Positions 27,421-34,741 of a stretch of DNA of 64,000 bases are shown here, piece after piece. The position numbers and the translations under genes were made by a program. The notes under the pieces were generated by a model. The model was not told where the DNA came from, searched no databases, and worked only from the letters and a program-made list of their open reading frames with translations. Source of the DNA: Chloracidobacterium validum (GTDB lineage Bacteria > Acidobacteriota > Blastocatellia > Chloracidobacteriales > Chloracidobacteriaceae); the NCBI RefSeq assembly GCF_018304825.1, contig NZ_CP072648.1, forward strand, positions 2,029,501-2,093,500. Reading direction: 5' to 3'. The first letter of the stretch is position 1; every line of letters begins with the position of its first letter.

Positions 27421-28137
27421 ATGGATTTTACTGGAAAAGTGGTTTTGATTACGGGGGGAGGGCGTGGCATTGGCCGCGCGGCCGCTCTGGGGTTTGCCCG
27501 TCATGGGGCCGATCTGTCGCTGGCAGCCCGCACGGCGGCTGACTTGGAGTCCGTTGCGACTGAGGTTCGCGCCCTGGGCCGCCGGGTGGTGGCGATTCCA
27601 ACCGATACGACGCGCCGCGAGCAGGTAACGGCCTGGGTTGCCACGACCGTTGCCGAACTCGGTCGGATTGATGTGGTCGTCAATGCGGCCGGTATCGGCA
27701 TTCTGAAGCCCTTCTCTGATCTGACGGAAGACGACCTAGATCGCATGCTGGCCGTCAATGTTCGGGGCGTTTTCTCGGTCACGCAGGTGGCGGCAGCGGA
27801 AATGGCAAAAACTGGCGGGGGCATCGTCGTCAACATCCCAGGCATTCTGGGGCGAGCGGCAATGATGCAGGCGGCCGGGTACTGCGCCTCGAAGTTTGCC
27901 GTCACCGGGATGACGCGCGCGATGGCGCTTGACCTCAAACGCAGCGGTATCCGCTTTACCTTGCTTCACCTTGGTGGTGTGGATTCCCCATTTTGGGATA
28001 ACATTGCCATGCGCGTCCAACGTGACAAGATGCTGTCAGTTGAAGATGCGGCAAACACCATTTTGTTTGCCGCGTCGCAGACCGGTAATGGCGTGTTGAA
28101 CGAACTCGTTCTCCAGCCGGAGAGTCACCAAATGTAA
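27421..28137 (+). CDS. short-chain dehydrogenase/reductase, catalytic Ser missing
   Basis: 238 residues from ATG 27421, with TAGGAG about nine bases upstream. The Rossmann motif TGGGRGIG (residues 11-18), NAAG (88-91) and the active-site Asn in AVNVRG (N113) are present, as are Tyr154 and Lys158 in YCASK. The residue 13 before Tyr, normally the catalytic Ser of ISS, is Gly141 in NIPG. It may therefore be slow, specialised or non-catalytic. It lies 45 bases upstream of the panC gene on the same strand, with a strong hairpin between. Substrate unknown. Confidence 0.9.
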   Translation: MDFTGKVVLITGGGRGIGRAAALGFARHGADLSLAARTAADLESVATEVRALGRRVVAIPTDTTRREQVTAWVATTVAELGRIDVVVNAAGIGILKPFSDLTEDDLDRMLAVNVRGVFSVTQVAAAEMAKTGGGIVVNIPGILGRAAMMQAAGYCASKFAVTGMTRAMALDLKRSGIRFTLLHLGGVDSPFWDNIAMRVQRDKMLSVEDAANTILFAASQTGNGVLNELVLQPESHQM

Positions 28138-28142
28138 TTCAC

Positions 28143-28171
28143 GCGGCAAGGGCAAGCATCGCCCTTGCCGC
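28143..28171 (+). other. hairpin between the SDR and panC genes
   Basis: Perfect 11-bp inverted repeat (gcggcaagggc / gcccttgccgc) with a 7-nt loop, filling the gap of 45 bases. No T-run follows. It could be an attenuator-like or processing structure just before the panC start. Confidence 0.55.
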
Positions 28172-28182
28172 CATTGAGTTGT

Positions 28183-29046
28183 ATGGAAATCGTGACTCGT
28201 ATTCCACGCATGCGAATGCTTGCCCCACGCCTCAAACGCGATGGAAAGAAGTTGGCGCTCATTCCCACCATGAGTGCCCTCCATGATGGACATGCCAGCC
28301 TCATCCGGCGCGCGCAGATCATCGCCGACGTGGTCGTGGTTTCGATTTTTTTCAACCCCATTCACTTTCAACAGGGAGATGAGTTTGAAGTTCCCACCCG
28401 CGACTTGGCGCGCGACGCCGAACTCGTCGCCAATAAAGGCGTGGACGTCCTGTTTGCGCCAAGCGTGGATGAGATCTACCCGGAAGACTTCCTGACCTAT
28501 GTGACGACAGACATCCTGGACTGTCGGCTGTGCGGGGCCAATCAGCCAAACTACTTTCGTGGCGTGACCACGATCATCAACAAGCTCATCAATATCGTCC
28601 AGCCGCACTTCACTCTGGTTGGGCAGAAAGATGCCCAGCAATCCATTATCATCCGGCGCATGGTTCGTGATTTATCCATGGATACGGAAGTGGTGATTTG
28701 TCCGACGGTGCGTGGTTCTGATGGACTGGTTATTTCCTCACGCAATGCGTCGCTCAATCCGGCGGAGCGCCGCGCCGCGCTGGTGCTTTACCGCGGACTT
28801 CAACGCGCGCAAGAATTGGTTGAGCGGGAGGGCGTGCGAGAGGCTGCCACGCTGACCGAGGCCGTCCGCCAAGTGCTAGAAACGGAACCTCTGGTGCGCC
28901 CAGAATATGTCGCCTTGGTGGACATGGAAAACCTCAATCCCTTGACGACACTGGCCGATGACTCAGAGTCACTCCTGGCGCTGGCGGCCCATGTCGGCCA
29001 GGTGCGGCTTACCGACAACATCGTTCTGAGCACAGGCACGACCTAG
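28183..29046 (+). CDS. panC: pantothenate synthetase-like protein, atypical active site
   Basis: 287 residues from ATG 28183, aligned along its length to pantoate-beta-alanine ligase, which joins pantoate and beta-alanine with ATP. Conserved parts include the second motif His (LHDGH), FRGVTTIINKL, VFAPSVDEIYP-like LFAPSVDEIYP and DGLVISSRN. Several core residues differ: PTMG is PTMS, NPxQF is NPIHF (the pantoate-contacting Gln is His), EKDxQQ is QKDAQQ, and the His before FRGV is Tyr. It is a real PanC homologue, but its activity needs caution. The SDR upstream may be co-transcribed. panB and panD are not in the window. Confidence 0.88.
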   Translation: MEIVTRIPRMRMLAPRLKRDGKKLALIPTMSALHDGHASLIRRAQIIADVVVVSIFFNPIHFQQGDEFEVPTRDLARDAELVANKGVDVLFAPSVDEIYPEDFLTYVTTDILDCRLCGANQPNYFRGVTTIINKLINIVQPHFTLVGQKDAQQSIIIRRMVRDLSMDTEVVICPTVRGSDGLVISSRNASLNPAERRAALVLYRGLQRAQELVEREGVREAATLTEAVRQVLETEPLVRPEYVALVDMENLNPLTTLADDSESLLALAAHVGQVRLTDNIVLSTGTT

Positions 29047-32837: not shown

Positions 32838-33719
32838 GTGTCTGACCCTCTACTCCTTCTCCTTTCACTTTTTGGCTCGACGCTCCGCCTTTCAACTCCT
32901 TTGATTCTTGCTGCCTTGGGTGGGCTGTATGCCGAGCGGAGTGGCGTCATCAACATGGCGCTGGAAGGCATCATGCTGGCCGGGGCGTTCACAGCAGCGA
33001 CGGTGACAGCTCTCGTTGGAAATCCCTGGCTGGGTTTGCTGGCGGGACTCGGAGCCGGGCTCATGGTGGCAGCGCTCCATGCGTTTTGCTGTATCACCTG
33101 CCGCGCGGATCAAGTAGTAACCGGAACGGCTATCAACATTTTGATGCTGGGGATTCCGCCGTTGGTTTCGGGAGCGCTGTTTGAGTCCACCGGTTCGACG
33201 CCGGCGCTGGCCAAAACCCAGACGCTCCCGACCCTGCCAATCGTTGCGGCGCTGGTTGCCGTTCCGGCGACGATGTTCATACTGTTCAAGACACCCTTTG
33301 GGTTACGTCTCCGGGCAGTCGGCGAAACGCCGGAGGCAGTGGCCACGGCTGGGATTAGCGTGAACTGGCTGCGCTGGCAAGGGGTCCTAATTTCAGGCCT
33401 GCTAGCCGGGCTTGGTGGCGTTTATCTCTCGATCGGGCAAAACTCACTCTACACACGCAACATGACAGCCGGACGCGGCTACATTGCCTTGGCAGCACTC
33501 ATCTTTGGCAATTGGCTTCCCTTCCGGGTGCTGGTGGCGTGCTTGCTCTTTGGTTTCATGGATGCGGTGCAGATTCGCCTCCAAGGGACGGCTTCCCTGC
33601 CCACGCAGTTCATCCAGGTCATTCCATATATTTTTACGATGGTGGTTTTAGCTGGCTTCATCGGCAAGGCTGTGCCGCCGCGGGCGCTGGGAACGCCCTA
33701 CATCAAAGGGCGCCGCTAG
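32838..33719 (+). CDS. ABC transporter permease, BmpA/nucleoside-type
   Basis: 293-residue integral membrane protein with about eight to nine hydrophobic segments. GTG start at 32838 with AGGAAAAGG upstream. The family hallmarks are the N-terminal ERSGVINMALEGIMLAGAF and the later TPFGLRLRAVGETPEAVATAGISV, seen in the second permease of nucleoside/simple-sugar uptake systems (NupQ/YufQ type). The partner permease, the ATPase and the lipoprotein that normally precede it are not next to it here. Its stop overlaps the stop of the convergent panE-like gene in a CTAG. Confidence 0.9.
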   Translation: MSDPLLLLLSLFGSTLRLSTPLILAALGGLYAERSGVINMALEGIMLAGAFTAATVTALVGNPWLGLLAGLGAGLMVAALHAFCCITCRADQVVTGTAINILMLGIPPLVSGALFESTGSTPALAKTQTLPTLPIVAALVAVPATMFILFKTPFGLRLRAVGETPEAVATAGISVNWLRWQGVLISGLLAGLGGVYLSIGQNSLYTRNMTAGRGYIALAALIFGNWLPFRVLVACLLFGFMDAVQIRLQGTASLPTQFIQVIPYIFTMVVLAGFIGKAVPPRALGTPYIKGRR

Positions 33720-34741
33720 GAAGCCGTTTCACCCTGGGCAATGCGCGCTTGCAGTCGCTCGAGAGGAAACTGTCCGACGCCCTGTCGGGTTTGGATGGAC
33801 TCGGCAACTGCCGCCATGAGGGCGCGGTTGATTGGGGTTGGAACCCCATACTGCTGACCGAGGCGGACGATCTCGCCATTGAGGTAGTCAACTTCCGTTT
33901 CTGGACGGCGGAAGTGAAGGTCCTGCCACATCGAAGGGTAGCCGCGCTGCTCAGGCGGCGTGTCGGAAAACTCGAGGCGGCGCGCCGCAAAGGCCTCGAC
34001 TTGAGCGCGAATATCGAAGCGACCGGTGACATCGGCCGGAGAAATGCCGGCCGCAGCCAACACGCGCAACCCTTCGTCCATGATAGCCCGCATCATCGCC
34101 AGCATGGCTGGATCGGCAAAAGCCTTCTGCCAGTAGCAATCCGTCACCGCCAACAAGGCGTTGTTGAGATTGCCAATGAGCTTGCCCCACTTGACCGCCA
34201 TGGCGTCGGGATGCTCCCGGGTGGGGAGTCCAGCCACGGTGAGATCGGCCGCGACCTGAGCAGTGAGGGCGTCCGTTCCCGCCGGAAAGCGGCCTACGGC
34301 CAGAAAGTCGGTGATGGTCAGGATCACGCGCCCCGGTTCAGGCAGTACGGCGTTGAAAAGAACGAGCACCGGATACACATTGGCAAAAGACGTGGCGACG
34401 ACCGGCTCGTTGGCCACACCGTTTTGCAGGCAGAACACCGGGGTGTCCGCCGGGAAATGGGCGGCAAGTTCGGCAGCGGCCGCTGCCGTCTGGGTGGCTT
34501 TGACACTCAGCAGGATGGCATCGCCTGGGCTTGGCTTGAGCCTCGTCACGCTCGATTCGGCCGGCACGTCAAGGGTGAAGACTTCCGTTGGCGTTTCGAG
34601 TCGCAATCCCCGGTCGGCAATGGCGGAGACATGAGACGGACGAGCCATCAGGCAAACCTTGCGGCCGGCACGGTAGAGCAACCCACCGACGACGCTGCCC
34701 ACGGCACCCGCGCCATATACAATGTAACGCTCAATGGTCAT
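33716..34741 (-). CDS. ketopantoate reductase family protein
   Basis: 341 residues of the ApbA/PanE family, somewhat longer than the usual 300. The NADP-binding motif YGAGAVGSVVG is at the N-terminus. The catalytic-Lys region AVKWGKLIGNLNNAL and the C-terminal substrate region SMWQDLHFRRPETEVDYLNG followed by GVPTPIN are clear. Family members reduce ketopantoate to pantoate with NADPH, but many have other substrates. Its ATG overlaps the crtYd stop as ATGA, so it is translated with the lycopene cyclase subunits. That context makes a plain pantothenate role uncertain. Confidence 0.88.
   Translation of the reverse strand: MTIERYIVYGAGAVGSVVGGLLYRAGRKVCLMARPSHVSAIADRGLRLETPTEVFTLDVPAESSVTRLKPSPGDAILLSVKATQTAAAAAELAAHFPADTPVFCLQNGVANEPVVATSFANVYPVLVLFNAVLPEPGRVILTITDFLAVGRFPAGTDALTAQVAADLTVAGLPTREHPDAMAVKWGKLIGNLNNALLAVTDCYWQKAFADPAMLAMMRAIMDEGLRVLAAAGISPADVTGRFDIRAQVEAFAARRLEFSDTPPEQRGYPSMWQDLHFRRPETEVDYLNGEIVRLGQQYGVPTPINRALMAAVAESIQTRQGVGQFPLERLQARIAQGETAS

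Follow-up and report, generated by a model that had tools for sequence, protein, structure and literature searches.

Organization of the locus

The window analysed is the whole stretch of 64,000 nucleotides from Chloracidobacterium validum, whose genome consists of two contigs with a combined length of 3,659,143 bases, 2,659,040 of them in the first. It carries a gene for a homologue of pantothenate synthetase (PanC), here called the PanC variant. The features of the locus are the following, with the residue numbers of M. tuberculosis PanC, which we take to be transferable to the variant when positioned by motif:

27421..28137, + strand: short-chain dehydrogenase-like gene directly upstream of the PanC variant, a possible functional neighbour
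28143..28171, no strand assigned: strong GC-rich hairpin between the dehydrogenase gene and the PanC variant
28183..29046, + strand: open reading frame of the PanC variant, 287 amino acids from its ATG, with an alternative TTG start at 28165
28264..28293, + strand: PTMSALHDGH, HxGH nucleotide motif kept, G41S changed
28354..28368, + strand: NPIHF in place of canonical NPxQF (pantoate Gln72 to His), from residue comparison
28390..28407, + strand: VPTRDL in place of canonical xYPRDL (Y82P, P83T), from residue comparison; gate region according to the excerpt of PMC7770189
28543..28566, + strand: QPNYFRGV in place of canonical RPGHFRGV (R132Q, H135Y), from residue comparison
28615..28641, + strand: LVGQKDAQQ, F157V changed, K160, D161 and Q164 kept, QKDAQQ being ordinary among near relatives
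28729..28746, + strand: VISSRN, A194V changed, SSRN ATP motif kept

Initiation at the TTG codon would lengthen the protein by 6 amino acids. The terms genus, family (f) and class designate groups assigned by the genome search set, the class of the compared genomes being, we assume, probably Blastocatellia.

The variant was found in eight genomes, corresponding to all seven of the genus and to one (G008) of a single sister genus. The dehydrogenase gene adjoins it in the five congeneric loci for which upstream context was available, and an orthologue with 78-100% identity is present in all eight carriers, whereas nine other genomes gave no match exceeding 40% identity (E 1e-30). Since all carriers belong to one clade, this co-occurrence counts as a single event. 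In G008, no PanC variant was present in the 553 bases examined downstream of the dehydrogenase gene. A strong intergenic hairpin, possibly a terminator or attenuator, recurs in all five congeneric loci for which the intergenic stretch is complete, built mostly from different letters (two of the five are identical). In the seven aligned dehydrogenase orthologues, the usual catalytic Ser, at the position that we presume for it, is replaced by Gly (NIPGILG) while Tyr and Lys are kept, and the product of 27421-28137 is possibly a non-standard or inactive enzyme, judging from these residues. An operon with the dehydrogenase was considered as a clue to the substrate of the variant, a notion weakened by the lack of the variant in those 553 bases of G008, the intergenic hairpin and the missing catalytic Ser. 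Further downstream, 4.7 kb from the variant, a PanE-like ketopantoate reductase gene (TIGR00745, 202 bits) occupies positions 33716-34741 on the - strand; a PanE-like gene is also found near the variant in four of the five other genus loci reaching that far downstream.

A PanC protein with an altered pantoate pocket

The variant matches the PF02569 profile over its full length with 291.1 bits (cut-off 20.7) and the PanC equivalog model TIGR00018 with 279.4 bits (cut-off 212.75). Its predicted structure (pLDDT 83.9, pTM 0.83) has solved PanC structures as best matches, with TM values of 0.91 to 2ejc and 0.89 to 1mop, and the PanC fold is thus recovered in the predicted model. Three segments were modelled with low confidence (62-64, 107-115 and 121-123), the first and the last of which lie within or beside altered motifs.

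The residues of the eight variant-clade sequences, this gene among them, were compared with those of 120 other PanC sequences, a background that was partly chosen by motif patterns and that includes other diverged copies. The residues involved in ATP binding and adenylation (H44, H47, K160, S196, S197 and R198) are present in all eight variant-clade sequences, as are N69, D161, Q164 and the complete SSRN motif. Of the two pantoate glutamines, therefore, Q164 is kept throughout; Q72, which is Gln in 110 of the 120 other sequences, is His in six members of the clade, Tyr in one and Gln only in the copy of G008. The pocket and gate residues G41, Y82, R132, H135 and F157 are all changed in 8/8. 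The Gly following PTM (G41) is invariant in the background (120/120) and is Ser in the whole clade, and the same pattern is seen at A194 (Ala in 120/120, Val in 8/8). The His preceding FRGV (H135) is kept in 113/120 sequences, with Tyr in four, and is Tyr in the eight clade members. The variant has Pro at Y82 (Tyr in 109/120), Gln at R132 (Arg in 113/120) and Val at F157 (Phe in 112/120). Apart from Q72, each altered position is fixed in the genus and in its sister alike.

These counts bear out three of the changes listed in the initial annotation of this DNA, namely PTMS for PTMG, NPIHF for NPxQF and Tyr for His before FRGV. A fourth, the reading of QKDAQQ as a departure from EKDxQQ, has to be withdrawn, because, of the five nearest canonical relatives, four have GQKDAQQ and one GQKDGQQ, and GQKDAQQ is also seen in the PanC structures of T. 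maritima and C. jejuni; the 120-sequence background cannot settle this column, since the scan pattern favoured it. Y82P, R132Q, F157V and A194V had been overlooked.

In the section consulted of PMC11317409, the pocket list of M. tuberculosis PanC includes G41, Q72, Y82, P83, R132, H135 and F157, and A194 does not appear in it. The excerpt of the review PMC7770189 assigns residues 75-88 to a gate and reports a pair of strongly conserved glutamines where pantoate binds. When all columns are considered, 8/44 pocket positions are changed in the variant, as compared with 9/87 elsewhere, an enrichment that is not significant on its own (p 0.16). The canonical copy described below has 1/44 pocket and 21/87 other columns changed, and differs from the variant in this respect (8:9 versus 1:21, p 0.005). 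The variant is not different from the canonical native copies of family f4 (3/44 and 10/87, p 0.26).

Two panC copies of different ancestry

A search for a second, canonical panC, proposed in the initial annotation, retrieved one in the same genome (G000:C1:219845-220672, - strand), which has a PanC score of 332.6 bits in a comparison where the variant has 290.7. It lies 0.7 kb from panD, with one open reading frame between them, and panB is located elsewhere in the genome. Both copies are present in the eight carriers; a genome with these changes and no other panC, which would have counted against the reading of the initial annotation, was found in 0/8. The canonical gene is within 1.5 kb of panD in seven carriers (in G002, this panD is a fragment at a contig end) and 11 kb away in G001, and in G008 panB, canonical panC and panD are found together on one contig.

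The two copies do not share a recent origin. In phylogenetic trees, the variant joins the native PanC proteins of its family with support 100/96, and the topology uniting it with the canonical copy was rejected (AU p 0.0027) in a tree of 43 of the 153 sequences, with which a separate tree agrees. A recent duplication of panC within the genome was rejected by the same test. The reported gene is thus the inherited PanC. The canonical copy branches outside the native PanC proteins of the class, and the trees point to no clear donor. It was presumably acquired, which is the simplest reading of these topologies, with an older duplication followed by losses as a possible alternative. One metagenome bin in the trees, L090, is titled Chloracidobacterium sp.; its PanC groups with Pyrinomonadaceae, which makes the label doubtful.

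The reading frame is open in all eight variant genes, and pairwise dN/dS values within the clade range from 0.03 to 0.24, with a median of 0.089 that resembles that of the canonical copies (0.082), figures that are rough given the many dS values above 1. The PanC variant is held by purifying selection.

PanC without panB in the class

The wider distribution of panC was surveyed in 104 genomes of the class with completeness of at least 90%. A PanC match was present in 103 and panB over the cut-off in 90. From the 14 panB-less genomes, 12 retain a full-length PanC (two in f3 g15, six in f7 and four in f8), and the other two have a PanC fragment (G069) or no PanC (G104). With best PF02569 scores of 225.7-321.3 bits, all 12 of these genomes rank below every panB-containing genome that was scored (88 genomes, at least 322.4 bits; Mann-Whitney p 1e-8, with kinship ignored), the gap being narrow at the border, where 321.3 bits face 322.4 and the latter belongs to a truncated gene. 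As a control, 129 genomes of the phylum with completeness of at least 95% were examined, 15 of which belong to the class. Among the others, none of the 21 that lack panB had PanC over the cut-off (one had a 19-bit fragment), and 93 had both genes. Retention of PanC without panB is thus 12/14 in the class versus 0/21 outside (p 1e-7). The contrast holds when counted by family, with 3/3 (f3, f7 and f8) versus 0/14 (p 0.0015), a count that omits f4, with its one panB-less genome carrying a PanC fragment and one lacking PanC. Incomplete genomes or overlooked divergent PanB proteins are possible explanations for single panB-less cases.

Half of the panB-less genomes that keep PanC (6/12) encode a type III pantothenate kinase, so that at least these six could draw on pantothenate taken up from outside. 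The persistence of PanC without pantoate synthesis implies another role, and suggests that a pantothenate-independent function was already present in the PanC of the class or is easily gained by it. The active sites of these proteins differ among families. The NPxQF motif is lost in the f3 g15 and f8 copies, the latter having also lost residues of SSRN. Changes are milder in f7, whose six panB-less genomes all retain Q164 and, in five cases, Q72, with K160 changed in four. L025 and L027, the sole PanC proteins of two panB-less genomes of one genus (G021 and G029), have PTRG or PTKG and no NPxQF motif. In f5, f9 and part of f8, a diverged native copy coexists with a canonical one in the same genomes. 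The diverged copies of f5, f8 and f9 have S197, R198 and the NPxQF motif changed, and their frames are open; dN/dS is about 0.12 for five f8 copies (median) and for one f5 pair. The f8 copies in question (L047, L049, L050, L051 and L183; median dN/dS 0.12), in which NPxQF is lost and APEN or ALEN replaces SSRN, are possibly PanC proteins that no longer act as ligases, if their motifs are a guide.

Canonical and diverged native copies have in common an N-terminal signature (E2, R9 and M10) that is less common outside. R9 is found in 94% of the canonical native copies (n = 31) and in 90% of the diverged ones (n = 29), as compared with 5% of 74 outside sequences, some of which are of uncertain class. 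The signature may mark a class-specific surface.

Proposed role and alternative explanations

In the explanation that we favour, and to which we give about an even chance of being right, the inherited PanC was displaced by an acquired canonical copy and kept as a ligase adenylating an acid other than pantoate. The reported gene is the PanC of the class, passed down vertically to Chloracidobacterium, and the common ancestor of this genus and one sister genus would have acquired a canonical PanC of different origin, which would then have taken over pantothenate synthesis. The old copy was retained, with its ATP and adenylation residues kept and residues of its pantoate and β-alanine pocket changed, and has since evolved under purifying selection. 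It would have lost its pantoate activity and would still adenylate another carboxylic acid and transfer it to an amine. A ligase with another acid is suggested by the adenylation residues, which are kept, together with the altered acid pocket and the strong constraint. The changed substrate put forward in the initial annotation finds indirect support in the two copies, the fixed states (Q72 excepted) and the purifying selection, and none in the supposed EKD to QKD replacement. According to the portion consulted of PMC12816986, C. validum grows with B12 as sole added vitamin, which is what pantothenate synthesis by the canonical copy would predict.

Some observations count against this explanation. 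The pocket enrichment is not significant, either on its own or against the f4 copies, and Q72 is retained in G008. No neighbour of the variant points to its substrate, and none is common to all diverged copies among 37 stretches, some of which end at contig ends. The panB-less f7 genomes that keep Q72 (5/6) and Q164 (6/6) could use imported pantoate.

At a broader scale, it is conceivable, with somewhat less than an even chance, that an old, unrecognised function of PanC, independent of pantothenate, persisted in four or more lineages (f1; f3 g15; f7; f5/f8/f9) upon loss of panB or in the presence of another PanC, in which case the gene in the window would show this function in isolation, probably with a different acid as substrate. 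Such a second role, if class-wide, cannot depend on adenylation, since residues of SSRN are lost in f5, f8 and f9, where at least the role would do without it.

For this reason, the main rival is a non-catalytic role, as the more diverged relatives lack the ATP motif too. The native PanC would play a structural or regulatory part, for instance by binding another protein or by forming a pair with its canonical counterpart, and its active site would drift once pantothenate synthesis was lost or performed by another copy. The open frames of the f5, f8 and f9 copies despite changes in S197, R198 and NPxQF, their constraint where estimated, and the survival of the R9 signature through divergence all fit this possibility. 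Nevertheless, the ATP residues are kept in 8/8 sequences of the window genus and its sister, the new pocket states are fixed instead of variable (Q72 excepted), and the outside set against which R9 was judged includes sequences of uncertain class. We regard a non-catalytic role as less likely than the favoured explanation, yet as a strong rival to it.

It is more doubtful still that the variant is a second pantothenate synthetase, one that works with different kinetics or in other circumstances. A score above the PanC equivalog cut-off, a whole fold like that of PanC structures, and the presence of Q164, the ATP residues and, in G008, Q72 would agree with such a role. They are set against the change in 8/8 of six near-invariant residues in or next to the pocket (G41, Y82, R132, H135, F157 and A194), the canonical copy in every carrier, and the altered PanC proteins kept by relatives without panB. 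Finally, a decaying relic of the displaced panC, which the lower score relative to the canonical copy might evoke, is scarcely credible, being strongly disfavoured by the low dN/dS, and at odds with the eight open frames and with identical altered states fixed across two genera.

To our knowledge, PanC is generally regarded as a single-purpose enzyme of vitamin B5 synthesis. Judging by titles and abstract openings, none of the papers retrieved treats a second panC of Chloracidobacterium or a pantothenate-independent role of PanC, and no word beginning with "pantoth" occurs in the main texts of two Chloracidobacterium papers (PMC12816986 and PMC8245765). In this class PanC outlives panB, yet among the other sampled genomes of the phylum it vanishes together with panB. 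This contrast points to another activity or to a partner, and the presence of panC in a genome of the class need not imply pantothenate prototrophy.

Comparison with known PanC systems

The PanC part of the cyanobacterial bifunctional PanC-cytidylate kinase (NF010004) matches the variant; identity with the bifunctional protein was rejected, with 265.8 bits against a cut-off of 524 and a match restricted to the first 282 of 514 model positions. Like the PanC proteins of T. maritima (2ejc) and M. tuberculosis (1mop), the variant has the full-length fold and keeps HxGH, N69, K160, D161, Q164 and SSRN. Unlike them, it carries G41S, Q72H, Y82P, R132Q, H135Y, F157V and A194V, and it shares its genome with a canonical PanC. 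Its nearest relatives outside the variant clade are the canonical PanC proteins of f1 and f2 (G007, G009, G010 and G011), with 55-60% identity and the same N-terminal signature; these differ from the variant in being encoded by single copies beside panB and in having an intact pantoate site. The diverged copies of f3 g15, f5, f7, f8 and f9 resemble the variant in being native proteins with altered active sites, in genomes where panB is absent or another PanC is present. However, they sit on other branches of the tree and their changes are unlike those of the variant, which, in contrast to the copies of f5, f8 and f9, has not lost residues of SSRN.
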